NCBI GenBank assembly: GCA_947629825.1 | Contig: CANRFF010000001.1 | Span: 124,001-188,000 of the forward strand | Reading direction: 5' to 3' | DNA length: 64,000 nt | Source: an uncultured Anaeroplasmataceae bacterium | GTDB lineage: Bacteria > Bacillota_I > Bacilli_A > Acholeplasmatales > Anaeroplasmataceae | Part shown: piece after piece, positions 22,244-51,846 of the stretch | How positions within the stretch are numbered: the first letter of the stretch is position 1 | How the letters are laid out: every line of letters starts with the position of its first letter | Position numbers and translations under genes: made by a program | Notes under the pieces: model-generated | Databases searched by the model: none | What the model was told of the DNA's origin: nothing | The model's input: only the letters and a program-made list of their open reading frames with translations

Positions 22244-22283
22244 TTAAAATCGTTCGTGTCTACAAATTGAATCTAAAAAAAAT

Positions 22284-22688: not shown

Positions 22689-22693
22689 GAAAT

Positions 22694-22775: not shown

Positions 22776-22791
22776 AGGAGGAAAACAAAAA

Positions 22792-23166
22792 ATGACAGAA
22801 GCATATCGAATTGCCTTAAAAGGACTGGAGTCATTCAAAAATCTTACACCTCGCTTGGCCGATTTTTTCATCGACTATTTCGAACTCTTCAACGTTCCCG
22901 GCGGATGTAAAGAATCGAATCAGTATTTTGCCACCCGTGAGGGAGTCGGTCTTTCGACAATCGAAGTTCGTTTTAAAAAACTCCGGGATGCTAAAATCAT
23001 CCAGACGGAGATCAATTATTTTTATCAACCAGATGCATGTAATAATCCGTCCGGATACATCACATCCAGAGTCATTACAATCGACCCGGTTTTTAAGGCC
23101 AAATTGGAAGATCTGGCACGCCGGGTACAAGACCGGTTAAATGAATTAAAAGGGGGAAAAAGATGA
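22792..23166 (+). CDS. Winged-helix-like regulator or replication protein
   Basis: 124 residues from the ATG at 22792, behind AAAGGAGG; an upstream open frame covers only the leader. The centre has a helix-turn-helix-like stretch (NQYFATREGVGLSTIEVRFKKL) with a following wing (AKIIQTEINYFYQP...GYITSRVITID). It ends Lys/Gly-rich. Family not recognised. It is immediately followed by the large membrane protein gene (1 base between), so the two form an operon under the attenuator leader. Confidence 0.55.
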   Translation: MTEAYRIALKGLESFKNLTPRLADFFIDYFELFNVPGGCKESNQYFATREGVGLSTIEVRFKKLRDAKIIQTEINYFYQPDACNNPSGYITSRVITIDPVFKAKLEDLARRVQDRLNELKGGKR

Positions 23167-23167
23167 A

Positions 23168-25126
23168 ATGGAACCGATGATTTTATATCGATCCGGATTT
23201 TTTTGGATAGAAAAAATCAAAACGGCTGGCCGATTTTTAAAAAATCTTTTGATTTTGCCACTAAAACCGATTGCCCGGACATTTTCCCAAGTAAGAACCG
23301 GTCTTCTGGAACGATTCCATCATTTTTATTATGAGGTTTTTCCGAGAATCGATTTTGTCAAAAAGAAATTTCGAAAGAAGATCTATCTTTTTATTATTTT
23401 TACCGGCTTTGGCCTGCTGATTTTTTGGATCACTTCGATGTTTTTAAAAAATGAGGTCTTAGAAATCATTTTAAAAAATATGTTTTTGACTGTTTGCGTT
23501 ATTGCCGGCACTCTGATTCTCAGTTATCTAGTATTCATTGCTTTCTTGTATCTTTATCAATATTATGCCGGGGAAGAAACGATCCAGGAACAGGCCCGGG
23601 CAGCAAGTCAGGAATATGTTTCTGAATTTTTGCCTAAAATCGCCAAAATTTATGGAAAAACCGGGAAAGGCAAGGATGAAACAATGGCCGGTCTTTCGAC
23701 TTTTTTGGTCGAGGGGTTCAAAAAAAAGATCCGGACACGCATGGAAGAGATCCAGGAGATCTGTTCTACTATGTTCGATTTCGATACACTGGATCAAATG
23801 ATTCTTGAACATGCGGATCTCTTTTATTCATCGTCGGAAAAAATCACAAAGTCCAATTTTTTTGATTTTGCCTCCCGGAATCATTTTTTCATCCGAAAAA
23901 ATTATCAGAACCGAATCTCGATTCACGATTTTATCGAAAGCGCCCGGATGCACCGTGAAAATATTATTCTCAAGTCTGACTATCTGGTTGACGCTGGCGG
24001 AACCAATAAGAAGCACTACATCGAATTATTGTATGAATATACCATGCTTCGAATCCGGCTTTTGGAAGGACATTTTATATTTTCAAATCAACCAATGTTC
24101 GAAGATCTCGAGTCCGGAACCGGTGCGGCCATTTTTTCTATATATTATCTGATTTCGAAAAATCAAAAGCCGGTTCGAAAAATGGAAGAAAACGATCACG
24201 GCCAAAAAGAACAGAAAGAGTATGTCGAAAAAGTAATGTTCCCTTTCAAAAACTTTATCGGAATCTGTGAAACCGAAGCCGGAGTCCATTATCTGAATTT
24301 AGATCGTCGGGTCAACCGGATTCTACAAGATTTCGGAATCCGGGATACAAAGGCTTTTAACCGGCATTTTTTCCCGGATTTTTTCTGGTACCAGACTGAT
24401 CAGGCTCCGGAAAGGACGAGTAAACTTTTTCGAGAACTGGATCATGCATTCATCTATCCAGACTCACGCCGGATAATCGTTGGTGGAAAACGAATGAATC
24501 GGATTTATCTGAAAAAAATCGAACTTTTGGACGAAAAAATCCGGAAAGTTCAAAAAAAGATGGAAAAAAGGAAGATCCATATCGATGTGGACAAAGAGAC
24601 GAGATATCTTATTTCTTCCGGAAAAAACAAATACTATAATCTTTTATTGAAATTCAAACATTTTTTTGAAGATTCCTCCAAAAATCGATTGAAGATTTTA
24701 AAACTGGAAGAAGAAAAAAGGAAATTGCTATATTTGAAGAATCAGAACGCATACCGGCATTCCTACATCGAAAAAATACTGACGATTTCAGAAACCACTC
24801 CACAATGCAATTCCGGAAAAACAATTTATCGCCCGGGCGATATCATCAATCATCCGGACATCATCATCAATGCTTATTCAGTCAAATTAACTTTTCGATT
24901 GTCTGATTGTTGGCGCTATGATACACACTACATGAAATCACTGAGGAATAACCGGGCGGACCAAAGCGAACTCAATCTGATTGATGTCCCGGAATGGGAT
25001 CCGTCGATGACTTTAAAAAAAGAAGATATACTTACAATGGGATATTACCAAGAAGCAGATCTCTTTGGCATTTCATCCGATGAAATGGATTTGATTCACT
25101 TTAAAAAAAATCAGAAAAAAAATTAG
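23168..25126 (+). CDS. Large membrane-anchored protein of unknown function
   Basis: 652 residues. Two membrane helices lie close together near the N-terminus (about 70-90 and 100-125, IYLFIIFTGFGLLIFWI and TVCVIAGTLILSYLVFIAFLYLY), with basic flanks. A long, charged, mostly helical cytoplasmic part follows, with a probable coiled coil around 455-540 (EKIRKVQKKMEKRKIHID, KILKLEEEKRKLLYLKNQ). No Walker A, relaxase or nuclease motif is visible. It is rich in Phe, Ile, Arg and Lys. It lies in an operon with the winged-helix protein, and the two together could form an uncharacterised maintenance, transfer or defence module. Confidence 0.55.
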   Translation: MEPMILYRSGFFWIEKIKTAGRFLKNLLILPLKPIARTFSQVRTGLLERFHHFYYEVFPRIDFVKKKFRKKIYLFIIFTGFGLLIFWITSMFLKNEVLEIILKNMFLTVCVIAGTLILSYLVFIAFLYLYQYYAGEETIQEQARAASQEYVSEFLPKIAKIYGKTGKGKDETMAGLSTFLVEGFKKKIRTRMEEIQEICSTMFDFDTLDQMILEHADLFYSSSEKITKSNFFDFASRNHFFIRKNYQNRISIHDFIESARMHRENIILKSDYLVDAGGTNKKHYIELLYEYTMLRIRLLEGHFIFSNQPMFEDLESGTGAAIFSIYYLISKNQKPVRKMEENDHGQKEQKEYVEKVMFPFKNFIGICETEAGVHYLNLDRRVNRILQDFGIRDTKAFNRHFFPDFFWYQTDQAPERTSKLFRELDHAFIYPDSRRIIVGGKRMNRIYLKKIELLDEKIRKVQKKMEKRKIHIDVDKETRYLISSGKNKYYNLLLKFKHFFEDSSKNRLKILKLEEEKRKLLYLKNQNAYRHSYIEKILTISETTPQCNSGKTIYRPGDIINHPDIIINAYSVKLTFRLSDCWRYDTHYMKSLRNNRADQSELNLIDVPEWDPSMTLKKEDILTMGYYQEADLFGISSDEMDLIHFKKNQKKN

Positions 25127-25133
25127 GGGTCGC

Positions 25134-25162
25134 TTGACTTTCATTTTTAAAAGTGATATTAA
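25134..25162 (+). promoter_or_regulatory. Promoter of leader 2
   Basis: TTGACT, 17 bases, TATTAA, with the same start-site spacing to AACTGAGAATGAATGG as in copy 1. Confidence 0.65.
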
Positions 25163-25169
25163 GATAAGT

Positions 25170-25250
25170 AACTGAGAATGAATGGGAATTGACTAGATCA
25201 ACATCTGGTTTTTTTCATCATTCTCTTTTTTGTTGGCCAAAAAAGAAAAA
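25170..25250 (+). promoter_or_regulatory. Attenuator-like leader RNA, copy 2
   Basis: Near-identical to 22694-22775: AACTGAGAATGAATGGGA, then ATCAACATCTGG, TCATCATTCTC plus T-run, and TTTTTTGTTGGCC followed by AAAAAAG. It precedes the ribosome site of the surface protein gene. Confidence 0.6.
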
Positions 25251-25263
25251 AGGAGAAAAGAAA

Positions 25264-26943
25264 ATGAAAAAACTGTTTTTATTTGCGGTAACGATGTTAG
25301 TTACTATGTTTGCGTTTTTTCCGGCCAACAATGTTTTTGCGGCTGGGACAACGAAAGACTTGGGCGGAAAGGTTTTCAAATTCGGCCAAGAATATGATTA
25401 TAACGAATTCTGGGAAACGCCGGACGGAACGTCTTATGACGATCGGAATGATTCTGAATATCCATATTACGGAAACACCAAACAATTCCCGGAGGGCTAT
25501 TATGCTTTTACCAGCGGTTTAGGCTCCCCGGTGGATCCGGATGGAGAGTGCTATGTAAAAATGGACGATTTTTATTCTCAAGTTGACCGGATAACCAATT
25601 TGATTATTATCGATGAGAGTGGGAAAGACATCACAAAATCTTGGGAAGACGTTGTTTTTTATCTTAGCCCAAATCAAAGTCTTTCAATCAGTCTATCCGA
25701 TGAAAGAGAAGAGGATCATTTAGGATTGATCAAATTGGAAGAAACGGATTATCAGGCACCGATCGTTAATGGATCTACGTATTATTTAATTGATGTCGAT
25801 AATATGATTTCAAAAGAATACATCGTCTCTCAGACGACTGCGATTGACGATACAGATGGATATGTTCAAGTAACTATAGAGGGCGGTAATTATGACCCGG
25901 CGAATCGGACGATCGGACGCTACAATCTGATTTTGGCAGCGACGGATTCTGCCGGGAACAAAACCACTTTGGAAGTGACTTGCGTAGTGGCCGATGTAAC
26001 GGCTCCATCGATTCTCGGTGTTCAAGATTATACTTTTTCATATAATGATGCCGATTCCGCAGAAGAGATCCTTTCCAGAATCTCTGTAAGCGATAATTAT
26101 GATCAGGAGATCACTTATCAGATCACGAACGATACCTATTCAAGCGCACCAAAAAGAAATGGGTATGTAGAGGTGGGCGATTATGAAATCGTATTTCAAG
26201 CGACAGATTCCTCCAAAAATTCGACAAAAGAGATCACTTCTCATATCAAAGTTGAGGACAAAGTGGCTCCGGTCCTAATTTATCCGGCGGAACTCGAAGT
26301 ATCGAACCAGACACTTCTTTCCAAAGAAGAACTTTTGAAAAAAATTACATCAAATGATGAGTATTGTGGCTCGTGCAAAGTAACAATCAAAGACATCGAT
26401 TTTGAAAAATATGTGTCCGGCTACACTTCGGCCGGTTCCAGATTTACTATCGAATTGTCTACCGAAGATGAATTCCATAACATAAAAACGGCGTCTATGA
26501 CGATTGTCGTTGTCGACAAAACAGATCCGACGATCGTTTTAAAAGATGTTTTCTTATGCCTGGATGAGGGTCAGGATTTAACAGAAGATCTTCTGAAAGA
26601 GTATCTTGCAATTTATTTGAACATCGATGTTTCCGAAATCGTGGCCGTGTCCGGATCTTTTGATGTTAAAAAAATCGGCACGTATGCGATGAACTTGACT
26701 TTGAAAGATGGTTCGGTTCAACCGTTTATTATTCAAGTAGGCAGAGATTCATTTAATTCGACGTTTACAACGGTTATAGATGTTACTGATTGGAATTACT
26801 GGAAATCATGTGCATCCACTTATGTTTCCGGGTTCTTTACATCGGATTGGAGTTGGAATGCTCTTTATTGGATCACAGGAGGAGTTGTAGGTTTAGCAGT
26901 ATTATTTGTCGTAATGTGGTTTTTCAGAAAAAATAAAAAGTAA
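25264..26943 (+). CDS. Secreted, membrane-anchored protein with Ig-like domains
   Basis: 559 residues from the ATG at 25264. It has a signal peptide (MKKLFLFAVTMLVTMFAFFP, cleaved near AFA-type VFAA), an extracellular part with repeated beta modules of the DUF5011/Ig-like type (DVTAPSILGVQDYTFSYND, KVAPVLIYPAELEV, TDPTIVLKDVFLCL), and a C-terminal membrane helix with basic tail (GGVVGLAVLFVVMWFFRKNKK). There is no LPXTG. The modules usually act as spacers or adhesins on the cell surface. It has its own leader copy and a terminator, so it is a separately regulated cargo gene of the element. Confidence 0.75.
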   Translation: MKKLFLFAVTMLVTMFAFFPANNVFAAGTTKDLGGKVFKFGQEYDYNEFWETPDGTSYDDRNDSEYPYYGNTKQFPEGYYAFTSGLGSPVDPDGECYVKMDDFYSQVDRITNLIIIDESGKDITKSWEDVVFYLSPNQSLSISLSDEREEDHLGLIKLEETDYQAPIVNGSTYYLIDVDNMISKEYIVSQTTAIDDTDGYVQVTIEGGNYDPANRTIGRYNLILAATDSAGNKTTLEVTCVVADVTAPSILGVQDYTFSYNDADSAEEILSRISVSDNYDQEITYQITNDTYSSAPKRNGYVEVGDYEIVFQATDSSKNSTKEITSHIKVEDKVAPVLIYPAELEVSNQTLLSKEELLKKITSNDEYCGSCKVTIKDIDFEKYVSGYTSAGSRFTIELSTEDEFHNIKTASMTIVVVDKTDPTIVLKDVFLCLDEGQDLTEDLLKEYLAIYLNIDVSEIVAVSGSFDVKKIGTYAMNLTLKDGSVQPFIIQVGRDSFNSTFTTVIDVTDWNYWKSCASTYVSGFFTSDWSWNALYWITGGVVGLAVLFVVMWFFRKNKK

Positions 26944-26956
26944 AAATTAAAGTTTA

Positions 26957-26996
26957 GGGGCTGTTAAAAATAAATAATTCTTCAACAGCCCCTTTT
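26957..26996 (+). terminator. Terminator after the Ig-like surface protein
   Basis: GGGGCTGTT / AACAGCCCC stem, loop of about 18 bases, then T4. Confidence 0.75.
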
Positions 26997-27012
26997 AAAA
27001 AGGAGATTTATT

Positions 27013-28389
27013 ATGAAAAAAATATATATTTTGTTAATGGCTCTGTTCTTTTTTTCTACAATATCTGTTTCTGCAAAAACTCAAGAATATAAAAATGTGA
27101 TAGACGATTCGACTACGATTGAAAATGATATAACTACAATAGGATTATCCTATGAGGATTATCATATTCATCATATTGACTTCTTCGATTTTTCCACCAA
27201 CGATCAGTATAATAAAACTGTTGAAAATTGGGATAAATTTTTTATTGTCGGAATGTCGGAAAGATTGTTGGAAAACAAACAGATACAAACCTATTTTTAT
27301 GTTTTTAATCCCATTTATCATTCATTGGATAATCAGGATGAACATTATTTAAGAAATATCGAATTTAATTACTCCATCAATCAAAATCCCTCCTACAAAA
27401 CGGATTCTTTTGAATTTTTAATGCAAGATAATGGAATTTTTAAATTCAAAGGATTTATTTATGATTATTCAGATTCAGCAACTATTTCGATTCGGTCGAT
27501 ACATAGTTACTGTAATTTTTGTAAAGATAAAACTTTCAACACAGATTTTGTGGCCGAAGTAAAACACGAGTATAATGATGGTAATTTATCTATCGCTTTA
27601 AAATACGATTCAGACTTAATCATTGAAGAATATAAGGTCGTTGAAGAACAGGTTGGACCGGATAATAATTTAATAAATAACTGGAATGAGTTTTGGGAAA
27701 GAAAACAAACTAACATGTTAGTTTATTTTTATAATTTTAATTTTCCGAAGCATTTATTACCGGATTCGATTGAGTATGCAAAATTTGAATATAATCTTTT
27801 AAAGTATCATGAAGTTAATTATATTTCGGGATTTAAAGGAGGGTTCGGAACATACGAAAATGAAGGAAAAACATTGATTAAAAATGAAAAAATTATTAGT
27901 GAATATAATAATGAATCAAGAAAATTACAGGTTAATGGACATTCGCAAGTATTAAATTTTCCTACTTTTTATATTGGTGGAAATAGATATGAGGATGGTC
28001 AATTTGGCGATTTAAAATTGACAAATAAAGAAGACTTCGATTACGATATATCCATTCTTTTAGATTCTACCTTTGAACAAACACAATCTATTAGTGGACA
28101 ACTTTTAGGAACCTCTGCGACAGTTGGGACAGTTAAAGATTATACTATAATGGACAATGTCAATTTTATCGAATTACACTGGACAAAAGATGGTGTTTCT
28201 TACCATAGTAGAATCATTACTCCAGAAGTTGGGAATGATGAATTCGATCACGGAGTGGCTTCAGATCCAACATTTTCAGTGATGACATCTTCCAAAGCAA
28301 ATCAAAAATTTATAATTGTCGTCATTATTATTTTGATTGTTTTAGTTCTTCTGATTTTATACTATAAGAAAAAAATTCAAAAGAAATAG
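27013..28389 (+). CDS. Secreted, membrane-anchored protein, unknown
   Basis: 458 residues. Signal peptide 1-21 (MKKIYILLMALFFFSTISVSA), a large Asn/Tyr/Asp-rich extracellular region of beta character, and one C-terminal helix (FIIVVIIILIVLVLLILYYKK) with a basic tail. A CNFC pair lies near residue 160. Family not recognised. Base composition is more AT-rich than its neighbour, suggesting a different origin. It follows the terminator of the first surface gene with an AAAAAGGAG ribosome site; no strong promoter is seen in the short gap, so read-through is likely. Confidence 0.65.
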   Translation: MKKIYILLMALFFFSTISVSAKTQEYKNVIDDSTTIENDITTIGLSYEDYHIHHIDFFDFSTNDQYNKTVENWDKFFIVGMSERLLENKQIQTYFYVFNPIYHSLDNQDEHYLRNIEFNYSINQNPSYKTDSFEFLMQDNGIFKFKGFIYDYSDSATISIRSIHSYCNFCKDKTFNTDFVAEVKHEYNDGNLSIALKYDSDLIIEEYKVVEEQVGPDNNLINNWNEFWERKQTNMLVYFYNFNFPKHLLPDSIEYAKFEYNLLKYHEVNYISGFKGGFGTYENEGKTLIKNEKIISEYNNESRKLQVNGHSQVLNFPTFYIGGNRYEDGQFGDLKLTNKEDFDYDISILLDSTFEQTQSISGQLLGTSATVGTVKDYTIMDNVNFIELHWTKDGVSYHSRIITPEVGNDEFDHGVASDPTFSVMTSSKANQKFIIVVIIILIVLVLLILYYKKKIQKK

Positions 28390-28439
28390 TTATGCTATAA
28401 TCTTGATGAGATGAGATCTTTCGAATGAGAGGTATAAAA

Positions 28440-28692
28440 ATGGGTAAAAAAAACAAAATTTACAAAAACAATATCATGTCTTTTTATTTATCATTACTTG
28501 TTGACAGAGGGGAAAATATCAAGATACGATATAGAAAATTATCTGGACCTGGACAATAGGATAACAATATATAACTATATTTTGGAATTGAAAATTTTTT
28601 TGTCAGAACTATCTCAGATATCCAATGATACATTTGAAATCGAATATGATTTTGAAACAAAAGAATATTTTTTAGAAAAGGATATGGAATAA
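28440..28692 (+). pseudogene. Frameshifted HTH regulator (WYL/DeoR-like N-terminus)
   Basis: A frame with a good ribosome site (GAGAGGTATAAAA) begins MGKKNKIYKNNIMSFYLSLL and stops after about 39 codons. The other frame, from about 28498, continues LLTEGKISRYDIENYLDLDN and runs to 28692. A one-base change near 28500 would join them into one protein of about 83 residues that resembles the winged-helix start of WYL-type regulators; the C-terminal domain is missing. Part of the element's right end. Confidence 0.5.
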
Positions 28693-28699
28693 TAAAAAA

Positions 28700-28732
28700 A
28701 TGAGAAAAGGAAGATCCCATCTCATTTTTTTT
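28700..28732 (+). terminator. Terminator near the right end of the element
   Basis: ATGAGA / TCTCAT stem with flanking A and T runs. Confidence 0.65.
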
Positions 28733-28875
28733 ATTTTTTTATTATTATGTTCATAAAATATGCACATGTATATATTTTATAATTAGCGAGGGAGTATAAT
28801 GATACTGAATATGAAAATCATATTCGTGTTCTTTGAAAATTCAATAGGGTAATAGGAAAACTTTAATTTGAAAAA

Positions 28876-28892
28876 TGTTCGGGGCCTCCAGC
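28876..28892. repeat. Attachment core (right copy)
   Basis: TGTTCGGGGCCTCCAGC, identical to 17106-17122 and followed by the same downstream sequence. It marks the junction between the complete element and the remnant. Confidence 0.85.
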
Positions 28893-29040
28893 ATTATTTA
28901 TCATTTAGAAGTGAGTAATTTCTAAATTGAAAATATGGAAAAAGGTTGAATTTTCAAACTAAAGTAAGTTTTGAATCTTCAGCCTTTTTTCTTTGGAAAA
29001 ACCGGATTTCAATAATGGAGTATTCCTGTCCAGCATTGAT

Positions 29041-29427
29041 TTATTCGAAGTTCTTCAGTGGATTGTATTTGAAATTGTTTCTTTTGATCTCTTCGTTGGT
29101 CAAATCTAAGTAACGTTGAGTATTTTCTAACTTTTGATGCCCTAATAGTTCTTTGACGGTATAAATGTCAGCACCATTTCTCAATAATTGTGTTGCATAA
29201 AGATGCCTGAATTTATGAGCGCTTAGAATATCGATTTTTAAATCTTTTTTAAGTTTATACAGCATAGAAGATACAGTCATTTTATCGATATGGCTATTAT
29301 GAAATTGTAATAAATATGGATTGTTTGAATCGTTTTTAGAAATCAGTTTCAAAAGAAGAGTTCCCAATTTATTTTCGAAAAAGCAAAATCTGGGTTTACC
29401 GCTTTTTGTATAGTCCAAATAGATCGA
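29041..29427 (-). pseudogene. Truncated integrase, C-terminal fragment
   Basis: Near-identical to the last 127 or so residues of the integrase at 17271 (HKFRHLYATQLLRNGAD, GHQKL, QRYLD). It has the catalytic His-x-x-Arg and Tyr but lacks the N-terminal domain and the first Arg, because of a deletion that fuses it at about 29427 to the membrane gene. No start signal remains. Confidence 0.9.
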
Positions 29428-29902
29428 CGGATGCTATCGATAATTTCTTGGACCTGCTCTTTGGTCAATTTACAATGGATTGAATAGTGTAGTTCATTAT
29501 TTTTATTATAAAAGGCCAATTGATGAGAAGAGTTTTTCGAAGATCCTTTAATAAAAAAACTTAAAATTACGATAATTACTCCCAGTCCGATCGCAACTCC
29601 AATCCCATAAAGCGGAGAATTTGTTTCACTGGAACTGGTCAACGGACCGATTAAAATACAAGCAACAATGATAATAAATAATCCTATGATGAATAATACG
29701 GGATTAACGAATCCTTTGTGTAAATTACTGGATAGATCATATTTAACCGTCGAAATTTCTTTTAAAGGAATACTGATTTCAGAATATGTTTCATTCAAAT
29801 CATGTGTATTCCCACTAAAAGAGGTCTTTATAATAGATAGATCTTTCTAATGACCATTTTTGTAGTATCGGTTTTGGTGTTTTCTAATAACAACTCTTTC
29901 AT
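29427..29902 (-). pseudogene. Broken copy of the two-helix membrane protein
   Basis: Copy of 18335-18826. A 4-base deletion near 29849 shifts the frame about 18 codons after the start, and the C-terminus is lost in the deletion junction with the integrase fragment. The ATG still overlaps the stop of the XRE gene upstream. Confidence 0.85.
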
Positions 29903-30132
29903 AAATTGTTCTCGCTTTCTTTAGATAGATCTTTGTAAATTAAATCATCGATGGAAAAACCTGTAATTTCTTTTAGCCGGATTAAGGTATCTAGGGAAGG
30001 CTTTTGTCCCTTGATATATTTTCCTATCATACCATTGGATAGATGTAATTCTTTTTGCAATGATGGATGATGATTGTTATACATTTTTTTTAGAATATAT
30101 GAGACATTTTTCCCGAAAATAGTGTAATTCAT
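29899..30132 (-). CDS. XRE-family regulator A
   Basis: 77 residues. Helix-turn-helix HHPSLQKELHLSNGMIGKYIKG followed by KPSLDTLIRLKEITG and the tail SIDDLIYKDLSKESENNL. The ATG overlaps the stop of regulator B, and its own stop overlaps the next ATG. The tail tag is shared with regulators B and C; the recognition helix is different, so it should bind a different operator. Confidence 0.75.
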   Translation of the reverse strand: MNYTIFGKNVSYILKKMYNNHHPSLQKELHLSNGMIGKYIKGQKPSLDTLIRLKEITGFSIDDLIYKDLSKESENNL

Positions 30133-39730: not shown

Positions 39731-39780
39731 GGTGTCAAACGGAATCTTTTTGTCATAGGCTAATATGGGAAGTGATGAAA

Positions 39781-40887
39781 TTGTGTGGCATTTGTTATAA
39801 AAGTAATTTTTATACCGAAACCAATGAAGAAGATTTTATTTTTGCCACGAATTTATTGAATCATCGAGGCCCCGATGATTATGGTTTTTTATTTACGAAA
39901 GAACATTCGTTCGGTCATAAAAGACTGGCCATCCGTGAAGTAGCGAATGCGAAACAGCCGATGAGCATTTTAAATGATCATCTGATCTATAATGGGGAGT
40001 TGTACAACGTCGAAGAACTGAAGAAAAAATTGGAAGAACGAAAAATTTCTTTGGAATTCGAAAGCGATACGTTATTGTTGTTGAAAATGTTAATCCATTA
40101 CAAAGAAGAAACGCTTCCGCTTTTAAACGGGATTTTCGGATTTGTTTATACTTCTAAAGATCAGGTGATGATTGTCAGAGATATGTTCGGTGTCAAGCCG
40201 TTGTTTTATAGTTTTATCGGTAAAGACATCATGGTTGCTTCCGAAATCAAATCGATTCTGGCGTATCGGAAAAAAGCAGTTGTCGATCGGGAAGGATTAT
40301 GCGAACTTTTGGGAATGGGTCCGTCTCACAGCGAAGGCAAGACGATTTACAAAGGTATCTATGAGGTAAAACCGGGACACTATCTGACTTTTAACCGGGA
40401 AGAAGGGGTAAAAGATCATATCTATTATCAACTTCAGGCAGAGGAGCATCATTTGAATTATAAGCAAACCGTTTTGAAAGTCAGGGAATTATTGGATCGT
40501 TCGATTCATCGGCAAATTGTTTCGGATGTGGGGATTTCGTGTTTTCTTTCCGGAGGATTGGATTCAAGTATCATCTCCACGATTGTCGCCAGAAAAATTC
40601 CGAATGTGGATACGTATAGTATCGATTATCAGGACAACAAAGAAGAGTTTCTTCCGAATCAATTCGAAATTTCTTCCGACCGTGACTTTACCAAACTCGT
40701 CAGTCAGAATATCGGCTCTCACCAGCATGATGTGGTCATTGACAATGTTACTTTGGTACAAGGTCTGAGCCAAGTCGTCAAGTGGAAAGACGCTCCCGGA
40801 ATGACGGATATTGACTCTTCAATGTACTTTTTGGCTCGGCAGATTGCCAAAAAACATAAAGTGGGACTATCGGGGAAAGGTGAGTAG
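39781..40887 (+). pseudogene. asnB: Asparagine synthetase, 5' part, interrupted
   Basis: Starts at the TTG of 39781: this gives Met-Cys-Gly-Ile, placing the catalytic Cys at position 2 as the Ntn-type glutaminase needs; the ATGs at 39772 and 39775 would bury it. It has the glutaminase domain (NHRGPDDYGFLF, YNGELYNVEELK, DMFGVKPLFY; about 1-190) and then the synthetase with the PP-loop SCFLSGGLDSSII. The native frame ends at LSG (about 40872) where the 5-kb element begins, then runs into GKGE and a stop. AsnB makes asparagine from aspartate, ATP and glutamine. While interrupted, the glutaminase half alone might be made. Confidence 0.9.
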
Positions 40888-40902
40888 AAATGGGGTGTTT
40901 TA
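40888..40902. repeat. Terminal inverted repeat, left
   Basis: AAATGGGGTGTTTTA, 14 bases inside the left junction; an inverted match to 45846-45862 with one mismatch in the core. Confidence 0.65.
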
Positions 40903-41078
40903 AGGAAAAACTTTCTTTGACCGACGGCTTAAAATTCCAGATTTTTATTTCAAATATCTTGCTGATTTAATTTGTTTAATGTCTTGTATAGATTTTTCGT
41001 AAAAAAATCCGCACATTTTTTTCCTGTACAACCCCATACAAATTATTTACTCGATAAAAAAATCGTAATTTAGTAAAT

Positions 41079-41198
41079 TTATTTCTCAAGAGGAATGACA
41101 GATGGAGATATACGACTTTTATCTCTGTATTTAGTAAATATATTTTCAATACCATGATATTTATTTGCAAATATCTCCTTATAGGGTATTAAATTCAT
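41079..41198 (-). CDS. Small peptide gene of the asnB element
   Basis: 39 residues (MNLIPYKEIFANKYHGIENI...). It has a perfect ribosome site GGAGG 6 bases before the ATG. It is divergent from the rest of the cargo and next to the left junction. Family not recognised; an excision regulator or a signalling peptide are possible. Confidence 0.45.
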   Translation of the reverse strand: MNLIPYKEIFANKYHGIENIFTKYRDKSRISPSVIPLEK

Positions 41199-41325
41199 TT
41201 TTTCCTCCAAAATTTGATTTTTGATTGTGAATTATAACGTTTTATTGTATAATTTACTTAAAATAACTAATATTCCAAAGCCAAAAAAATATTCATTTTA
41301 GTGAAAAAGTGAGGGAGGTAAAAAT

Positions 41326-41515
41326 ATGAAGCATTTAAAATGAATGTTATGTTCCATAGTAACAGCAATATTATTATGACCTATACTATCAAAGTGATTT
41401 CCACTTGAATTATGAATTGAAAAAGAAAATCATATTTGAATCTGATTCGGCAGTTTTAAAGAATTTGAGTTGAAATGAAGAAGAAAACGATGAATATGAA
41501 GTTGCAGGAATAATA
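41326..41515 (+). pseudogene. Decayed small gene, frameshifted
   Basis: Starts with GAGGGAGGTAAAAAT-ATG and a hydrophobic stretch (MLCSIVTAILL after an in-frame TGA), then shifts frame to read YYYDLYYQSDFHLNYELKKK and SDSAVLKNLS(stop)NEEENDEYEVAGII. It looks like a short membrane or secreted protein with at least one frameshift and two stops. It lies just before the lipoprotein gene. Confidence 0.5.
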
Positions 41516-41632
41516 TAATGATAGAACTTTCATCAGATTTTGATCAAATATGCTTATATTAATATGGTTCAACAGTTAATCCAACAGACCATATGGCACT
41601 TGCATGGTCTATCACATAAAGGAGAGGATTTT

Positions 41633-42058
41633 ATGAAAAAGATATTACTTATATTGCCATTGCTTTTATTGACATTAGTGGGATGTAGTAAAGTTGAAGT
41701 AAATGCTGATATGTATGAAATAAAAGATGGGGTATATGAACAAGAAGTTAAGGATTATGAATATGAAATATTAAGTACCTATGAGGATTATCAAAAAAAT
41801 CAAAATTATGATTCTTTACATACTTATGAAAAGGATTATTTTAATAATCATGCAATTTTAATTTTATATATTCGTGATTCGACGACCGGAAACAGATATG
41901 GTTTAAAGGAAGTAAGTAAAACTAATAGCAAGCTAACAATCTTTATTGAATATATAGAGTATGGTATGGATCAAGCATTTTCCACAACAGTATATTGTGT
42001 TGAAGTAGAAGCAAAAGGAATCAAAAAAGTTGAAGTAAAAAGAATAACAAAAGAATAA
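41633..42058 (+). CDS. Small lipoprotein of the asnB element
   Basis: 141 residues from the ATG at 41633 (AAGGAGAGG upstream). Signal peptide MKKILLILPLLLLTLVGC with lipobox LVGC and Cys18 as the lipid attachment site. The mature part is acidic, Tyr-rich and of mixed alpha/beta type (EVKDYEYEILSTYEDYQKN). No family recognised. Its presence as the only envelope cargo suggests a role for the host or element, for example surface exclusion or sensing. A strong terminator lies about 155 bases downstream. Confidence 0.7.
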   Translation: MKKILLILPLLLLTLVGCSKVEVNADMYEIKDGVYEQEVKDYEYEILSTYEDYQKNQNYDSLHTYEKDYFNNHAILILYIRDSTTGNRYGLKEVSKTNSKLTIFIEYIEYGMDQAFSTTVYCVEVEAKGIKKVEVKRITKE

Positions 42059-42212
42059 AGGAAGGGGAGATAATAAAAATGAAAGAAATAGAAAAGAAAT
42101 AATCTTTATTTATATGGATATTAAAGAACCAATCAACATTTGCTTATTATCTTGACGACTATCAAGTTTATAAATAATAGCTTTTTAATCAGTAATCTGT
42201 TTTAAAAGTATG

Positions 42213-42257
42213 ACCCTTAATACATTACTTTAAGTAATTTGTTAAGGGCTTTTTTTC
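42213..42257 (+). terminator. Terminator after the lipoprotein gene
   Basis: CCCTTAA-tac-ATTACTT / AGTAAT-ttg-TTAAGGG long stem followed by T7. Confidence 0.85.
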
Positions 42258-42632
42258 AGCACTCAATTGAAAAAAGATTTTCGCCAATCTCTTTTATCCA
42301 AATATTATATTGAATGTTCAATTCTCAACAGTTCTTCTCAGAACTGATTTTGAGGAAATCAATTCATTTTAAAGGAAAAAGAAATCATCAAAGTAGAGTG
42401 AATCTATCCCGGTGATACCGGATGAAAACAAAAGCAAAACAAGTAACCTCTTCGACATTAAAAAGATACTGAGTTATTTAAAGAATAAAGTCGTATTTTT
42501 TATATGTAATCATGGTTTTATAGATTATCCTTTAAGAATGGAGGAATTATTATAGTCATTGAAAAAGGACAAAGTATAGATAGTATGATAAAAAATTGTC
42601 TTTCATATACTTTATGGGAGGCCAAAAAATAA
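42258..42632. other. Non-coding stretch before the recombinase operon
   Basis: About 375 bases. No gene with a start and ribosome site is evident. A frame from about 42555 (VIEKGQSIDSMIKNCLSYTLW) follows AATGGAGGAATT but lacks a standard start codon; it could be a small coupled gene starting at ATT or a decayed one. Confidence 0.4.
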
Positions 42633-42788
42633 GTGGAAACTTATCGAATTGACGATTTGGAAATAAAGGTAGAACGAACCTTTAATGAAGAAGGCAAAAG
42701 TATCGCCGAGGCATTAGTAGATATATTCATCGAATATACGAAAGCCAATGATATTAAGATTATAAGTGACCAATTGGAAAAAGGTTGA
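42633..42788 (+). CDS. Small protein coupled to the serine recombinases
   Basis: 51 residues, GTG start behind GGGAGG. METYRIDDLEIKVERTFNEE, then GKSIAEALVDIFIEYTKAND. It is acidic and ends 4 bases before the first recombinase ATG. Short proteins in this place are common before serine recombinases on integrative elements; a recombination directionality factor is a testable possibility. Confidence 0.6.
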   Translation: METYRIDDLEIKVERTFNEEGKSIAEALVDIFIEYTKANDIKIISDQLEKG

Positions 42789-42792
42789 TCAT

Positions 42793-44415
42793 ATGCAAAC
42801 CAGTTTAAATACTGCACTTTATTGCAGACTATCTAGAGAAGATGATAATACGAAAGACATATCAAGTTCCATTTCATCTCAAAAGCAACTATTAACCTCT
42901 TTTGCTATGAAAAATAATTTTGGTATCTATAAGACATATATAGATGATGGTTACAGTGGAACAAATTTTAATCGGCCTGGATTTCAGGAAATGTTGCGTG
43001 ACGTTGAAGATAATCATATCAAGATTATCATTGTCAAGGACTTATCCCGTTTTGGAAGAAATTATCTCCAAACAGGTAGATATTTAGAGGAGTATTTTCC
43101 CATCAAAAGAGTCAGAGTTATTGCTTTGAACGATAATTATGATAGTCAAGAAAACAATAATGATTTTACTCCTTTTAAAAATATCATCAATGAATGGTAT
43201 GCCAAAGATATTTCTAAAAAAGTAACCTCATCTTTACAACTCAAACAAAGAAAAGGGGAAGTTCCTTCCGGAAAGCAATGCTTATATGGATATATGTATG
43301 ATGAAAAAAGAAATCGAATTCCGAACCCGGAAACCGCTCCTATTGTTCGATATATTATTGAATCGACAATAAAAGGAATTACTAAAGCGGAAATAGTAAG
43401 TACTTTGAGAAAAAATAAAGTTTATATCCCTGCTTATTACAATTTTATAAGATTTCATATTAATCCGCGCAGATATATGAACTATCCTGAGGAAAAAAAA
43501 TATCTTTGGCAATCTGCCCAGATAGAACGAATTATTTATTCGAGGGAATATGTTGGAGATTTAGTAGTATCTAAAACCAAAAAGTATAATTTTAAGATGA
43601 GTAACCGATATAAAAATCAAGATGCGATCATTATTAAAAACCGATTCGAACCAATTATTTCAAAAGAAATGGCAGATAGATTATATCATCTTAGAAAAAC
43701 TCGTTCAGTAACGAGGTTACCCTTAGAAATAGATACATTTAAGGGTCTGATTTATTGTAAAAAATGCGGCAAAAAAATGTCGATAAAACAGTATCAAAGA
43801 AAAAATGGTTTTGTATTGGGCTATTATTGCCACAACGATTCTTGTGGATATAAGGGCTTATTTAAAATGGACACTCTTAAAACAATTATTCAAAATGAAT
43901 TATTGAACTTAAAAAAGATTGTAGAAGACTCCGAAGAAGAAATCTTATTTAGAGCAAAATCCTATTATGATAGTCTTGATAAGGAAGAGAATAAACCGCA
44001 ATTTTCGACCATGGAAAATCAACGAAAGAAATTGGGAAAAAGATTGGAAAAACTTAAACTTCTTATTAGATGTTTGTTTGAAGAGAATATTTTAGGAAAT
44101 ATTCCCCCGATTGCTTATGAAAGCATGATGCAAGAATATAATAGCGAACTTAAAGAAATTGAAACTGCATTGAATAAGCTTAATCAAACTGCCGAATCCC
44201 CCAAAGAAGAAAGTAAGGATAAATCCATTCATTTGAAGAATATGTTAAGTATTTTGGAAAATGAAAAAATTGATACTTTGTTGAATAGAAATTATATGAT
44301 GAATATCTTCGAGAAAGTATGTGTTTTTTCTAATCGTAAGCATATAGAAGTTGTATTTAATTATGGAATAATAAATGATTTTATAAAAAGTATTCAAATA
44401 AAAGTTGAGGAATAA
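42793..44415 (+). CDS. Large serine recombinase 1
   Basis: 540 residues from the ATG at 42793 (an in-frame GTG at 42766 lies in the previous gene). The resolvase-type catalytic domain is at 1-150: ALYCRLSREDD with the nucleophile Ser, YIDDGYSGTNFNRPGFQ, IVKDLSRFGRNYLQTG. Then come the recombinase domain (about 165-270, SGKQCLYGYMYDEKR...), a zinc ribbon (YCKKCGKKM...YYCHNDSCGYKG), and a coiled-coil C-terminus (about 390-470). It is expected to recombine the TCGGG-centred sites in asnB, alone or with its neighbour. Confidence 0.93.
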   Translation: MQTSLNTALYCRLSREDDNTKDISSSISSQKQLLTSFAMKNNFGIYKTYIDDGYSGTNFNRPGFQEMLRDVEDNHIKIIIVKDLSRFGRNYLQTGRYLEEYFPIKRVRVIALNDNYDSQENNNDFTPFKNIINEWYAKDISKKVTSSLQLKQRKGEVPSGKQCLYGYMYDEKRNRIPNPETAPIVRYIIESTIKGITKAEIVSTLRKNKVYIPAYYNFIRFHINPRRYMNYPEEKKYLWQSAQIERIIYSREYVGDLVVSKTKKYNFKMSNRYKNQDAIIIKNRFEPIISKEMADRLYHLRKTRSVTRLPLEIDTFKGLIYCKKCGKKMSIKQYQRKNGFVLGYYCHNDSCGYKGLFKMDTLKTIIQNELLNLKKIVEDSEEEILFRAKSYYDSLDKEENKPQFSTMENQRKKLGKRLEKLKLLIRCLFEENILGNIPPIAYESMMQEYNSELKEIETALNKLNQTAESPKEESKDKSIHLKNMLSILENEKIDTLLNRNYMMNIFEKVCVFSNRKHIEVVFNYGIINDFIKSIQIKVEE

Positions 44416-44418
44416 GTG

Positions 44419-45846
44419 ATGTCAATGGTAGGATTATATGCCAGATTATCTGTAGATAGTAAAAACTCCTTAAGTTGTCAAAATCAAATTGAACAGCTCA
44501 GAAAGTTTTGTTTCTTGAAGAATTTCAAACAAATAAAAGAATATATAGATGATGGTTATAGTGGTAAAAATATGGAAAGACCGGCTTTTAAAAGTTTAAT
44601 TGCAGATATTGAAAATGGCACGATTAATACATTATTGGTAAAAGACCTATCTCGTTTTTCAAGAAATCTTTTAGATGCCATGTATTTGATAGAAGAATTC
44701 TTGAAGAAATATAAAACACGATTTATCAGTGTGAATGATCATTATGATAGTTTTTTAGAAAATGATGAATATGAAGTTGTAATCCGGTGCTTCATCAACG
44801 AATATTATATCAAAGATTGTTCAAAAAAAATGAAATCTGTTATAGCAAATAAAGCAAACCGACAATCTTTATCAACAGGATTCTATGGCTATGTTTTAGA
44901 TGAAAATAAGAAATTGGTTGTTCATCCAAAGCGAGCGGAAGTTGTAAGATACATTTATAGTGAGTACATAGCCGGAAAAAGCATAGATAGTATTGTGAGG
45001 ACTTTGAATGAAAAAAAGATTCCTAGCCCACGAGCAATTAGATTTCATAAAGAAGTCCAATGGACGAAGCAAAGTATTCATTCAATTGTTGCAAATGAAG
45101 AATATACAGGAGTAGCAATCAATTATAAAAATGTCAGTATCCATTTCAAAGAATTAAAAAATAAGGATACTGTATGTATTGAAAATGACCACGAACCTAT
45201 CATATCTAAAGAGGTTTTTACTCTTGCTGAAGCCAGAAGGAATAAAAACATATCCGCAAGACAAAAAAAATATGATATAGAAAAACTGAGCGGTCGAGTA
45301 TATTGCTTGAACTGTAATCGGTCTATGATTTTTTCTTATGAAAAAAAGGGGGATCATTTTCTTTATCAAACTTATACATGCCCCATCTGCAAAAATAAAA
45401 TTAAAGCAAAAGATCTTTATTCGATTCTTGAAGAAGATATTAAAAAGGTAATTAAAAGAATTAAAGAGAATTCCGGTGACAAATTACTAAAGAAGAAATT
45501 GAAATCGATATTCAAAAACAAATTAGTTATAGACAAAGAGATGAAAGATATTCGGTTTTCCTATAAATTTATTTTTGAAAGTTACATGTTTGGAAAAATA
45601 ACAAAGGAATCCTATTTATCCCAAATCGAAAGTATCAAACAAAAAGAAATAGATTTAAATGAAGCCATTTCAAAGAACCTTCAAAATCAAAAATCAGAAG
45701 AACAGATTCTTTCGGAGTATAAAGTATTTTTAAAAAACATGAAAGAATTTACAAGTCTTACCCAAGTGGGATATATAAAGCAATTTATAGAGAAAGTACA
45801 GATAAAGGGTAATTATTTAAATATTTCTTACAAATATCATTTTTGA
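44419..45846 (+). CDS. Large serine recombinase 2
   Basis: 475 residues; ATG at 44419, three bases after the stop of recombinase 1. Catalytic domain GLYARLSVDSK (Ser), YIDDGYSGKNMERPAF, LVKDLSRFSRNLLDA; recombinase domain with GFYGYVLDENKK; zinc ribbon YCLNCNRSM...TCPICKN; then a shorter coiled coil. It is clearly different from recombinase 1. Adjacent pairs occur in staphylococcal SCC elements (CcrA/CcrB), where both act together; the same may hold here. It ends 26 bases from the right TCGGG. Confidence 0.93.
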   Translation: MSMVGLYARLSVDSKNSLSCQNQIEQLRKFCFLKNFKQIKEYIDDGYSGKNMERPAFKSLIADIENGTINTLLVKDLSRFSRNLLDAMYLIEEFLKKYKTRFISVNDHYDSFLENDEYEVVIRCFINEYYIKDCSKKMKSVIANKANRQSLSTGFYGYVLDENKKLVVHPKRAEVVRYIYSEYIAGKSIDSIVRTLNEKKIPSPRAIRFHKEVQWTKQSIHSIVANEEYTGVAINYKNVSIHFKELKNKDTVCIENDHEPIISKEVFTLAEARRNKNISARQKKYDIEKLSGRVYCLNCNRSMIFSYEKKGDHFLYQTYTCPICKNKIKAKDLYSILEEDIKKVIKRIKENSGDKLLKKKLKSIFKNKLVIDKEMKDIRFSYKFIFESYMFGKITKESYLSQIESIKQKEIDLNEAISKNLQNQKSEEQILSEYKVFLKNMKEFTSLTQVGYIKQFIEKVQIKGNYLNISYKYHF

Positions 45847-45862
45847 AAAAACGCCCCATTTT
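45846..45862. repeat. Terminal inverted repeat, right
   Basis: AAAAACGCCCCATTTTT, an inverted match to 40888-40902; probable recombinase binding arm. Confidence 0.65.
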
Positions 45863-45871
45863 TCCACACAT

Positions 45872-46588
45872 TCGGGAGAATGTGCAGATGAAATTTTCGG
45901 TGGGTATCCTTGGTTTTACCGCAAAGAAAAAAGTTTGAATACGTTCCCTTGGATTCGGAATCTGGATGAACGGGAACATCTTTTGAATCCTCAGTGGCGG
46001 GAAAAACTTCATTTGAAAGAATATGTCGAAGAAGAATATCAAAAAGCCCTTCGGGAAACGCCGGTTTTAAAAACGGATACCAAGACGATGATCCGCCAAA
46101 GGCAATTGTCTTATATCAATATGAAATATTTTATGACCAATTTATTGGATCGGAAAGATCGGATGACAATGGGGGCTTCTTTGGAAGTGAGGGTTCCGTT
46201 TTGCGATAAGGAACTGGTGAATTTTTTGTATAATGTACCGTTTCAATTCAAATATCATTCCAAAGTCGAAAAGAAGTTATTGAGAGACGCTTATAAAAAA
46301 ACCGTTATTGACGAAGTGGTCGAACGGAAAAAAAGTCCTTATCCGAAAAGCAATTCCAAAAAATATCATCAAATGGTCGTTTCCGTTTTGGAAGATTGTC
46401 TGAAAAATCCGGATAGTATTCTTTATGAGTTGTTCGATATGAACAAGATCAAAGATCTGATGTATTCCGATAAGGAATTGGAAGTGCCATGGTATGGGCA
46501 GTTGATGAGAAAAACAGCCTTTTTGGCCTATTTGTATCAAATTGATTATTGGTTTCGCACCTATCACATTGAAATTGGGGGAGAATAG
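45872..46588 (+). pseudogene. asnB: Asparagine synthetase, 3' part, interrupted
   Basis: The frame from TCG GGA GAA TGT reads SGECADEIFGGYPWFYRKE, the conserved block that follows LSG in AsnB, and continues through DRMTMGASLEVRVPF and MVVSVLEDCL to the C-terminus (237 residues after the junction). Joined to the 5' part it gives about 601 residues, a usual AsnB length. No obvious start signal exists for this half alone, so it is silent unless the element excises. The stop overlaps the GTG of the next gene. Confidence 0.92.
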
Positions 46589-46920
46589 TGGAAAGTTTGG
46601 ATTTTATTTCGAAAATATTGGATGGGAAAGTGGTTTTGGGAACGAAAGAGGAAATTACGGAAAATTTATTTTTGATTCCGGTATATCGGGTTAAAATCTC
46701 TTTTCTGAATTTAAAAACCGATATCAAAAGTACCAACGGAGACGGGATCAGCGGAAGTATCAACGTGACGCCGATTTGCTTATTGAAAATCTCCGGTCCT
46801 ACGGTTGAGGTTTTGAATTTGGAAGAGAATACCGAAAAAGACTCTTTGGTCGATTTCATTCCCAATATGTTATCCAATATCGATGTAAATAATTTATTGA
46901 AAAATTTCAAATTGAATTGA
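46588..46920 (+). CDS. GerW/YtfJ-like protein
   Basis: 110 residues, GTG start overlapping the asnB TAG. LDGKVVLGTKEEITENLFLIPVYRVKISF followed by GISGSINVTPICLLKIS and a C-terminal LVDFIPNMLSNID have the layout of YtfJ/GerW, a sporulation protein needed for normal germination in B. subtilis; the Gly-rich middle is reduced here to NGDGISGS. Its function in the cell is inferred only. Because it follows asnB directly, the element in asnB may also affect its expression. Confidence 0.6.
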   Translation: MESLDFISKILDGKVVLGTKEEITENLFLIPVYRVKISFLNLKTDIKSTNGDGISGSINVTPICLLKISGPTVEVLNLEENTEKDSLVDFIPNMLSNIDVNNLLKNFKLN

Positions 46921-47906: not shown

Positions 47907-48830
47907 TCAGAAGTCCGATAACTTATTTCTGAAATTATATTTGGAAAGCACTTGTTTTTTGTGAGTGTTGGAAACTTCTAAATAAATTTCCGTTGTCGAA
48001 ATACTGGAATGACCCAATATTTCCTGAACGGAGCGGATATCGGCACCATTGGTCAATAGATTTGTGGCGAATGTATGACGTAGATAATGGGGTGTGGAAG
48101 ACCGGTTGATATTCGCTTTATCTCGATATTTTTTAAAGAGATCTTCCATACTGTGAATCGATAGCGGATCGCCGTATTTATTCAAAAATAAATTCCGGCA
48201 GTCCGGTTTTTTTTCGTTTCGGACGGAAACCCAATCCAAAAGATGTTTCCAGGTTTCTTTGCAGGAAATATAAATCAGACGCTGTTTTCTTCCTTTCCCG
48301 TGAATCAGAATCACCCGTTCGGAAAAAATGATGTCCGAAAGTTCGATTTTGGCGGCTTCTCCGATTCGGATTCCGGTGGATATCAGCAAATCGACCAGTG
48401 CCAGATCCCTTTGAAATCGAAAATGTTCGAACTCGGTTTTGGATTCCATAGAAGCGTTCTTGACAACGTTCAATAGTCGGTGTACTTCCCGGACGGTAAG
48501 GATTCTGGGAAGTTTTTTTTCCTGTTTGAATTTGAATTTCAATTTGGTACAGGGATTGGCAAAATGATAATTTTCTTCCAAAAAGCGAAAATACATTTTC
48601 AAGGTAATGATTTTTCTTTGGATACTGGTATCTTTCAAATGAAGATCATTTTGAAGATGGTGGATATAGTCGATGATGCTTTCGGTTGTGATGTGATAAA
48701 TTTTATGTTGTTTCAACACATTGAAAAATTGATTCAGATCATAAGAATAGGCAATCACCGATTTTTCCGACAAATTTTTGGTTGTTTGAATTTGATGAAT
48801 AAATTCATCCGAATATTTTGAAATGTTCAT
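47907..48830 (-). CDS. Tyrosine recombinase, XerC/XerD-like
   Basis: 307 residues, start after AAAGGGGAAAAAT. Core-binding domain 1-95 and catalytic domain with LISTGIRIGEAAKI (Arg), GKGRKQRLIYI (Lys), HYLRHTFATNLL (His-x-x-Arg), GHSSISTTEIYLEV (His, Tyr). The length and lack of arm-binding domain are those of Xer proteins that resolve chromosome dimers at dif; an element integrase is possible but no repeats flank it. It is alone between a terminator and yidD. Confidence 0.85.
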   Translation of the reverse strand: MNISKYSDEFIHQIQTTKNLSEKSVIAYSYDLNQFFNVLKQHKIYHITTESIIDYIHHLQNDLHLKDTSIQRKIITLKMYFRFLEENYHFANPCTKLKFKFKQEKKLPRILTVREVHRLLNVVKNASMESKTEFEHFRFQRDLALVDLLISTGIRIGEAAKIELSDIIFSERVILIHGKGRKQRLIYISCKETWKHLLDWVSVRNEKKPDCRNLFLNKYGDPLSIHSMEDLFKKYRDKANINRSSTPHYLRHTFATNLLTNGADIRSVQEILGHSSISTTEIYLEVSNTHKKQVLSKYNFRNKLSDF

Positions 48831-49658: not shown

Positions 49659-49783
49659 ATTTTCATCACCCGATATGAATTATAACATATTTTTTTGACT
49701 TTCGAAAGAAAAACAAAATGCGAACGGAATACTATCACTTAAATTTCTGTTTTTTCATATATTATAACAGGGAGGTATGTATA

Positions 49784-50299
49784 ATGAATGAAGTCCGTGA
49801 AATAGTTACGAAAGCAGTTGTCGCAAAAGGCAAAAAAGCAATGCACATAACGCATAGTATCCAAACCACAGCCCATCCCTACTCAGTGTTAGGTTGCTGG
49901 GTGATCAATCATGAGTTTGAAGCGACTCGTAACGATCAAATGGTCGATATCGAAGGAGAATTCGAAGTCAATATCTGGTATTCTACGGAAGAAAACAGCA
50001 GAACCGATGTATTAAGAGAAAAAGTCGCCTATCATAAAGACATCAAAGTAAAGAAAATCGTGAATGAATATATGAAAAACAGCGATGATGTTCTGGCACG
50101 CATTTTAAAACATCCGACGGTTACCAATGCGAAAATCATCGATGATCAAATTCAACTGGATATCGATATGGAGATTTTGGCGGAAGTCATCGGTGAAACC
50201 AAAATGCAAGTGACTGTTTTTTCGCCCGTGGTATCAGACGAAGATGATATTGACGATTTAGATATCGAAGTCAATGAAGATTTTTTGAAAGACAAATAG
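49784..50299 (+). CDS. cotE: CotE-like outer spore coat morphogenetic protein
   Basis: 171 residues from the ATG at 49784 (GGGAGG upstream; the frame is open to 49718 without a ribosome site). MNEVREIVTKAVVAKGKKA, VLGCWVINHEFEA, VDIEGEFEVNIWYS, and LAEVIGETKMQVTVFS parallel B. subtilis CotE closely, and the C-terminus is acidic (DEDDIDDLDIEVNEDFL) as in CotE. CotE builds the outer spore coat in the mother cell. A CATATATT sequence at about 49756 is close to a sigma-E -10, but no fitting -35 is seen. This is strong evidence that the organism forms, or descends from, spore-formers. Confidence 0.88.
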   Translation: MNEVREIVTKAVVAKGKKAMHITHSIQTTAHPYSVLGCWVINHEFEATRNDQMVDIEGEFEVNIWYSTEENSRTDVLREKVAYHKDIKVKKIVNEYMKNSDDVLARILKHPTVTNAKIIDDQIQLDIDMEILAEVIGETKMQVTVFSPVVSDEDDIDDLDIEVNEDFLKDK

Positions 50300-51753: not shown

Positions 51754-51761
51754 AAAATCGT

Positions 51762-51846
51762 CCATTTAGAGAAGGTGAGAGACAAGCTCTGTGACCCTTC
51801 AGCAACCTTTTGAGTAAGGTGCTAATGCTTGGCTGATGGTAAATAA
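51762..51846 (+). ncRNA. SAM-I (S-box) riboswitch
   Basis: AGAGAAGGTGAGAGAC, GTGACCCTTCAGCAACC, AAGGTGCTAATGC and CTTGGCTGATGG are the S-box landmarks, closed by P1 ATTTA / TAAAT. The 3' side GATGGT can pair with AACCAT of the terminator to form an antiterminator. When SAM is plentiful the terminator forms and the operon is off. The operon ends in metK, which makes SAM, so the loop closes on itself. Confidence 0.92.

Follow-up and report, generated by a model that had tools for sequence, protein, structure and literature searches.

A putatively excisable recombinase cassette splits asnB at its active-site codons in an uncultured Anaeroplasmataceae bacterium

The split asnB locus

We analysed a window of 64,000 nucleotides, positions 124001-188000 of contig C1, from the genome of an uncultured Anaeroplasmataceae bacterium (G000; a 1.42-Mb, 96%-complete assembly of 12 contigs). 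Within it the asparagine synthetase gene asnB is interrupted by a 5,002-bp element that lies between the Gly and Glu codons of the LSGECADE motif. The locus comprises:

39781..40874, + strand: asnB 5' part (glutaminase domain and first part of the synthetase domain, through LSG); the frame ends at 40887 as deposited
40870..40874, + strand: TCGGG core at the left end (attL), with the predicted crossover dinucleotide GG at 40873-40874
40875..45876, + strand: intervening element, 5,002 bp
45872..45876, + strand: TCGGG core at the right end (attR), with GG at 45875-45876
45872..46588, + strand: asnB 3' part (SGECADE...)

The left part, with about the 364 codons originally claimed, reads ...GGACTATCGGG at its end and is followed by GAAAGG; where the right part restarts, at 45872, the sequence reads ...CACATTCGGG followed by AGAATGTGC. 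The two TCGGG copies stand 5,002 bp apart, and the original prediction of an element set into the LSGECADE codons is confirmed. The precise joining that it proposed through the shared TCGGG is also borne out, since removal of one 5,002-bp unit leaves a single 601-codon frame with 0 stops, from TTG at 39781 to 46588. The restored frame reads ...VGLSGECADEIFGG..., and the joined sequence contains LSGECADEIFGG. The likely start is the TTG (TTGTGTGG, MCGI...), which is kept in most of the asnB orthologues examined.

The restored protein scores 416.6 bits against a TIGR01536 cut-off of 267.1 and retains MCGI, the P-loop SGGLDSS and SGECADE. The halves had been described as undecayed, and none of 126 columns invariant in other AsnB sequences is violated in the restored protein of G000 or in that of G004, a second genome split at this codon. 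PF00733 (Asn_synthase) matches the left half over positions 1-127 and the right half over 124-353. These are the sole Asn_synthase matches in the genome, so the check for another complete asnB finds none. The SGEGADE motif of Escherichia coli AsnB contributes its Glu and Asp to the active site. In G000 the left frame as deposited stops at 40887 after LSGKGE, and the first listed start of the right half, at 45935, lies beyond the ECADE codons; for both reasons neither half alone could be active, as judged from its sequence.

Recombinases, attachment sites and crossover

From left to right, and between its attachment-site arms, the element carries the start of a pseudogene, a small lipoprotein-like gene, a 51-amino-acid open reading frame (ORF) and two adjacent genes for large serine recombinases (LSRs):

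40888..40900, + strand: right arm of the attP inverted repeat (AAATGGGGTGTTT)
41326..41343, + strand: pseudogene start (MKHLK, then stop); in the G004 cassette this cargo gene continues past that point, by nucleotide comparison with G004 contig C1
41633..42058, + strand: small lipoprotein-like cargo gene without a family match
42633..42788, + strand: 51-amino-acid ORF directly 5' of rec1, a candidate directionality factor
42793..44415, + strand: rec1, LSR of 540 amino acids with Resolvase and Recombinase domains
44416..45846, + strand: rec2, LSR of 476 amino acids with Resolvase and Recombinase domains
45849..45861, + strand: left arm of the attP inverted repeat (AAACGCCCCATTT)

The domains of rec1 and rec2 agree with the earlier suggestion of a site-specific recombinase element in conserved codons. 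The rec2 stop lies 26 bp before attR. Family searches with the 51-amino-acid ORF gave no convincing match; small ORFs occupy the equivalent place in other LSR-pair operons.

When the element ends are joined, the predicted attP (circle junction CCACACATTCGGGGAAAGG) is an inverted repeat centred on GG, unlike attB, which is asymmetric. Its arms are symmetric at 20 of 28 positions in G000 and 21 of 28 in G004, a level reached in 0 of 5,000 shuffles. The left arms in G004 are TTATCA on the chromosome side and CACATTCG in the element; exchange at GG is the only option that fits both ends. Two independent lines, the attP symmetry and the G004 ends, thus place the predicted crossover at bases 1 and 2 of the invariant Gly codon. 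The split is more than a chance event, given that the G004 split falls on the same codon and has near-identical element ends, and that the shuffles never reached the attP symmetry.

A sigma-E promoter for the recombinase operon was considered, as CATACANT/CATATACT precedes the small ORF in all three gene-splitting cassettes described here. We did not count it, because genomes that lack SpoIVA have the same motif in their LSR operons and because it overlaps look-alike short reading frames. Upstream of rec1-like recombinases (L035, L036, L037 and L040; order family f2), the small ORF is repeatedly preceded by a short sequence bearing CATATACT, apparently inside small reading frames of similar sequence; this LSR group may use it as a leader-peptide or regulatory element.

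Relatives with and without the element

Comparison with related genomes had been proposed as a check. Among ten congeners, asnB is intact in seven (69-71% identity), is a fragment at a contig end in G002, is absent from G001 and is split at the same codon in G004. The latter (Anaeroplasmataceae bacterium SC0377_S7_4, JAIDZC010000016, a metagenome-assembled genome) is the closest carrier of the same element, with a contig of 17,926 bp. A search of 395 class members found no asnB split at this codon besides those of G000 and G004. An assembly or binning artefact would be a concern insofar as the compared genomes are all uncultured assemblies per their records and the G004 cassette is broken across two contigs, but the element of G000 sits inside a 263-kb contig and the same junctions occur in an independent assembly of another species, so we give this explanation a negligible probability.

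Between G000 and G004 the AsnB proteins are 70% identical and the asnB DNA 67%, whereas the recombinase module is 87% identical. Synonymous divergence (dS) is 0.30-0.33 for the recombinases and saturated for asnB. With recombinases that have diverged much less than the host asnB genes, the element moves horizontally and crossed between the two lineages after their split. Amino acid identity is 94% for rec1 and 87% for rec2, with ratios of nonsynonymous to synonymous substitution (dN/dS) of 0.10 and 0.19; these pairwise values show that selection has acted on both recombinases, which may stem from their past as mobile genes.

The G004 cassette exceeds 16 kb, and its cargo comprises a tyrosine recombinase along with ShosTA-like, PDC-S31-like, Abi-like and TnpV genes. 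Scattered parts of this cargo have short matches in the G000 element, some of them pseudogenised, and on these matches the G000 cassette is read as a shrunken copy of a larger, defence-like cassette. Neither this shrinkage nor horizontal mobility, nor the splitting of other spore-type genes at active-site codons by related cassettes, formed part of the original prediction. That the 5-kb copy is partly pseudogenised and far shorter than its G004 counterpart could also mark a dead remnant, a decayed element that has lost excision and left asnB as a two-piece pseudogene. Such a remnant is improbable: both recombinases are full-length, with the low dN/dS given above, the attP symmetry is intact and every invariant AsnB residue is retained.

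In named genomes, the relatives of rec2 are found in the G004 assembly and as two distant LSRs outside asnB; IMG/VR yielded no rec2 relative, and phage records match at under 60% identity only. An XerC/XerD-like tyrosine recombinase gene lies in the window at 47907-48830 on the - strand, 1.3 kb downstream of asnB, and similar-looking tyrosine recombinases are found within the G004 asnB cassette (L016 12593-13501) and in a cassette in the spoVD-like gene of G021.

AsnB and the sporulation setting

Reactivation of asnB under asparagine limitation, as first suggested, is weakened by the presence of asnA in 11 of 11 congeners. For that reason AsnB is not the sole route to asparagine, and asparagine supply is not its obvious purpose. 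Two further features of the locus bear on its role:

39754..39762, + strand: sigma-K/E-like -10 motif CATAGGCTA (CATANNNTA), 27 bp before the asnB start
46588..46920, + strand: YtfJ/GerW-type spore gene overlapping the asnB stop (Spore_YtfJ match)

An ORF occupies the same position behind the asnB 3' half of G004 (L018 12771-13100). The shape of CATANNNTA fits a sigma-K -10 element, and the motif stands 24-29 bp before the start in 17 of 18 asnB orthologues from four genera; as these are related sequences, they do not count as independent cases for a significance value. A CAC or similar triplet usually lies about 16 bp further upstream, and the surrounding intergenic DNA does not align among the orthologues. 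The background is 39 occurrences in 128 kb (both strands of the window); some directly precede cotE (49756, ATG at 49781), a D-Ala-D-Ala carboxypeptidase gene (13328, ATG at 13350) and one transporter gene.

The sporulation setting assumed earlier is borne out by gene content. G000 encodes SpoIVA and SigE-, SigG- and SigK-type sigma factors; the SigK-type gene is intact, and the SigE- and SigG-type genes adjoin each other, as in relatives. SpoIVA occurs in 15 of the 19 genomes of the order with AsnB, plus two others above cut-off. At window 49718-50299 the outer spore coat gene cotE follows a CATATATTATAA motif, which supports a spore-forming member of the Anaeroplasmataceae. The organism, a gut bacterium, is probably spore-forming. 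From the promoter footprint and the three spore-type targets of the cassettes we infer that AsnB is probably a mother-cell sporulation enzyme like Bacillus subtilis AsnO, rather than the cell's asparagine supplier. Amidation of diaminopimelate, known for AsnB proteins elsewhere (PMC8554201), is an alternative role; a paper on Listeria AsnB shows both activities in the family.

Related cassettes in other spore-type genes

Of 160 genomes of the order, 18 have relatives of rec1. Two of the cassettes that carry such relatives likewise interrupt a gene precisely. One, an LSR-pair cassette of about 11 kb in G021 (contig C25; L048, L052), splits a SpoVD-like penicillin-binding protein at its SxN motif. 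The intact orthologue of this protein scores best to SpoVD, at 647.5 bits, just under the cut-off of 688. A first join of the halves, giving NECN, was rejected, as a crossover scan showed that exchange at AA restores GIQ-N-SCN, with the NSCN found in relatives. This crossover is less certain than that of asnB, since a differently centred candidate is slightly higher on symmetry. In G001 (contig C38; L054, L047, L055), an LSR-pair cassette of about 13.4 kb splits a D-Ala-D-Ala carboxypeptidase gene, the orthologue of the one in our window, between KT and GF at GG; its removal restores WGKTGFTRKS with the KTG motif. Other LSR-pair islands, in G010 and on contig C88 of G001, have no obvious split gene. 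In G032 (C66:1602-2219), a second, partial match to a SpoVD-like penicillin-binding protein (residues 327-532) accompanies an intact copy elsewhere and could be another duplication or interruption.

The presence of similar cassettes at equally precise sites in relatives suggests a group of removable switches. A broader proposal, which we hold tentatively and at a little under even odds, is that LSR-pair cassettes of the Anaeroplasmataceae target active-site codons of mother-cell genes (asnB at LSG/E, spoVD at SxN, the carboxypeptidase at KTG) and act as developmentally excised DNA introns, so that defence genes would be carried in the germ line and the enzymes restored only in the terminal mother cell.

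Interpretation

We favour, with a probability of roughly 57%, a horizontally mobile LSR-pair cassette that acts as a skin- or gin-like gene-intervening element, its excision restoring a mother-cell gene. Integration, the well-supported step, would be an LSR-mediated attP x attB exchange with crossover at GG (LSG/E), in a codon pair held constant by protein function; its geometry, like the exact restoration, the mobility and the intactness of recombinases and asnB halves, comes from computation on the deposited genomes. With the cassette in place AsnB would lack the ECADE motif and be inactive, and the insertion would be tolerated during growth if asnB acts only in the mother cell. This maintenance step we infer from the promoter footprint and the three spore-type targets. 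The recombinases, perhaps with a small directionality factor, would then release the cassette as a circle, leaving asnB exactly restored. By analogy with skin in sigK and gin in gerE, this would most likely happen in the mother cell: the germ line would retain its copy, and the terminal mother cell, whose genome is not passed on, would lose the cassette and regain the gene at the time of need. That asnB is expressed in the mother cell, that the cassette leaves in vivo and that it does so during sporulation are predictions.

The main rival, compatible with such excision rather than exclusive of it, is an ordinary integrative cassette like those of the staphylococcal cassette chromosome (SCC) or integrative mobilizable elements. 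Its attB would be a conserved stretch of asnB, its insertion would have inactivated a dispensable gene, and excision would be rare, undirected and linked to transfer rather than to development. This is possible, though clearly short of even odds. The defence-like genes and TnpV of the G004 cassette suit it, AsnA can supply asparagine, G001 lives without asnB, the islands of G010 and G001 C88 split no obvious gene, and no specific sporulation promoter was found for the recombinases. It sits less well with three split genes that are all spore-type and whose restored motifs are exact, with undecayed asnB halves, and with a G000 element that lost most of its cargo yet kept both recombinases and its att sites.

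Several observations weigh against developmental excision. The recombinase operon has no assignable sporulation promoter, the CATA-type motif before its small ORF being found also in LSR operons of genomes that lack SpoIVA, and the directionality factor is unproven, the 51-amino-acid ORF being a candidate only. Pattern searches for the excised circle or empty site, with attP in congeners and with attP and attB in IMG/VR, found none, and the assembly holds no excised junction or circle either. G001 retains SpoIVA without asnB, so AsnB is not needed for sporulation genus-wide. The lack of decay in the asnB halves, owing either to function or to recency, could just reflect a recent insertion. The family is related to the wall-less mollicutes, and we know of no observation of sporulation in it. 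In cultured Anaeroplasmataceae sporulation is not known, and a 2024 survey states that some may be spore-forming (PMC10868615).

Should excision be confirmed, it would be direct evidence of spore formation in these uncultured bacteria. The targets here are the asnB, spoVD-like and D-Ala-D-Ala carboxypeptidase genes, hit by SCC-like LSR-pair cassettes with defence genes. Every insertion falls on an invariant active-site codon, which points to a simple rule: the recombinases choose sequences that protein function keeps constant, and the cassettes persist where loss of the gene is cost-free to the germ line.

Other features of the window

A tRNA gene (17047-17117) is followed by a tyrosine recombinase gene and a small membrane-type gene (17271-18826). 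These two recur, partly truncated, at 29041-29798, with about 10 kb of unusual genes between, and the region 17047-30000 looks like another integrated element with duplicated ends. An S-adenosylmethionine riboswitch (51759-51842) immediately precedes priA (51895) and stands about 5 kb ahead of metK (56731).

Comparison with known systems

Gene-intervening elements excised in sporulation have been described for sigK, spsM, spoVFB, gerE and yabG in Bacillus and Clostridium. No report of asnB as an LSR site turned up in a literature search. Like skin, gin and yin, the asnB element lies in a coding sequence whose frame its removal restores exactly, carries its own recombinase and has att sites with a shared core.

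The SCC elements, with CcrA and CcrB, likewise rely on an adjacent LSR pair, which brings a cassette and its defence-type cargo to a single site in the chromosome; theirs is rlmH, whereas that of the cassettes in G000 and G004 is asnB, which places these outside SCC by insertion site. Scores of 66.4 bits for rec1 to CcrB and of 81.8 and 60.2 bits for rec2 to CcrB and CcrA fall far below the curated cut-offs of 900 and 700, so these recombinases are not CcrA or CcrB. Tn4451-like clostridial mobilizable elements (TnpX, TnpV) are also LSR-based, and a TnpV gene is found in the G004 cassette, but the asnB cassettes have two LSRs and one specific coding target; a Pfam scan of ten G004 cargo proteins found no mobilisation gene. 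The fdxN element of heterocystous cyanobacteria is an LSR element in a gene that only a terminally differentiating cell requires, and differs in lineage, target and cargo; rec1 and rec2 distantly resemble its XisF, far below the XisF cut-off.

Closer in setting are skin in sigK of B. subtilis and C. difficile (PMC5025042) and SPbeta in spsM (PMC4191935), in which a serine recombinase element interrupts a mother-cell gene and a small directionality factor takes part (CD1234, of 72 amino acids, in C. difficile skin, PMC5025042; a candidate in the asnB element). Those elements are prophages or prophage-like, with excision and sporulation control proven, and their targets and recombinase arrangement are unlike those of the asnB element. 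The yin element in yabG of Clostridium botulinum shares the position within a sporulation gene, a conserved attB and a small putative directionality factor; unlike the asnB element, it is prophage-like and its excised circle was detected (PMC10747680).

The nearest precedent, which upholds the skin-like analogy first drawn for this locus, is gin in gerE of Bacillus cereus ATCC10987, a non-phage island with several serine recombinases, a girA/girB operon likened to ccrAB, restriction-modification genes and a symmetric attachment site with a central dinucleotide, set in the coding sequence of a sporulation gene (PMC5595907). Its third recombinase, GirC, excises the 28.6-kb island together with GirX, as demonstrated experimentally during sporulation (PMC5595907). 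The asnB element is alike as a non-phage serine recombinase island in a coding sequence, with a symmetric site around a central dinucleotide and exact restoration. It differs in its length of 5 kb, in its lineage, in its adjacent LSR pair and in its target asnB, as the related cassettes do in theirs, and its excision is predicted only, whereas that of gin has been observed.

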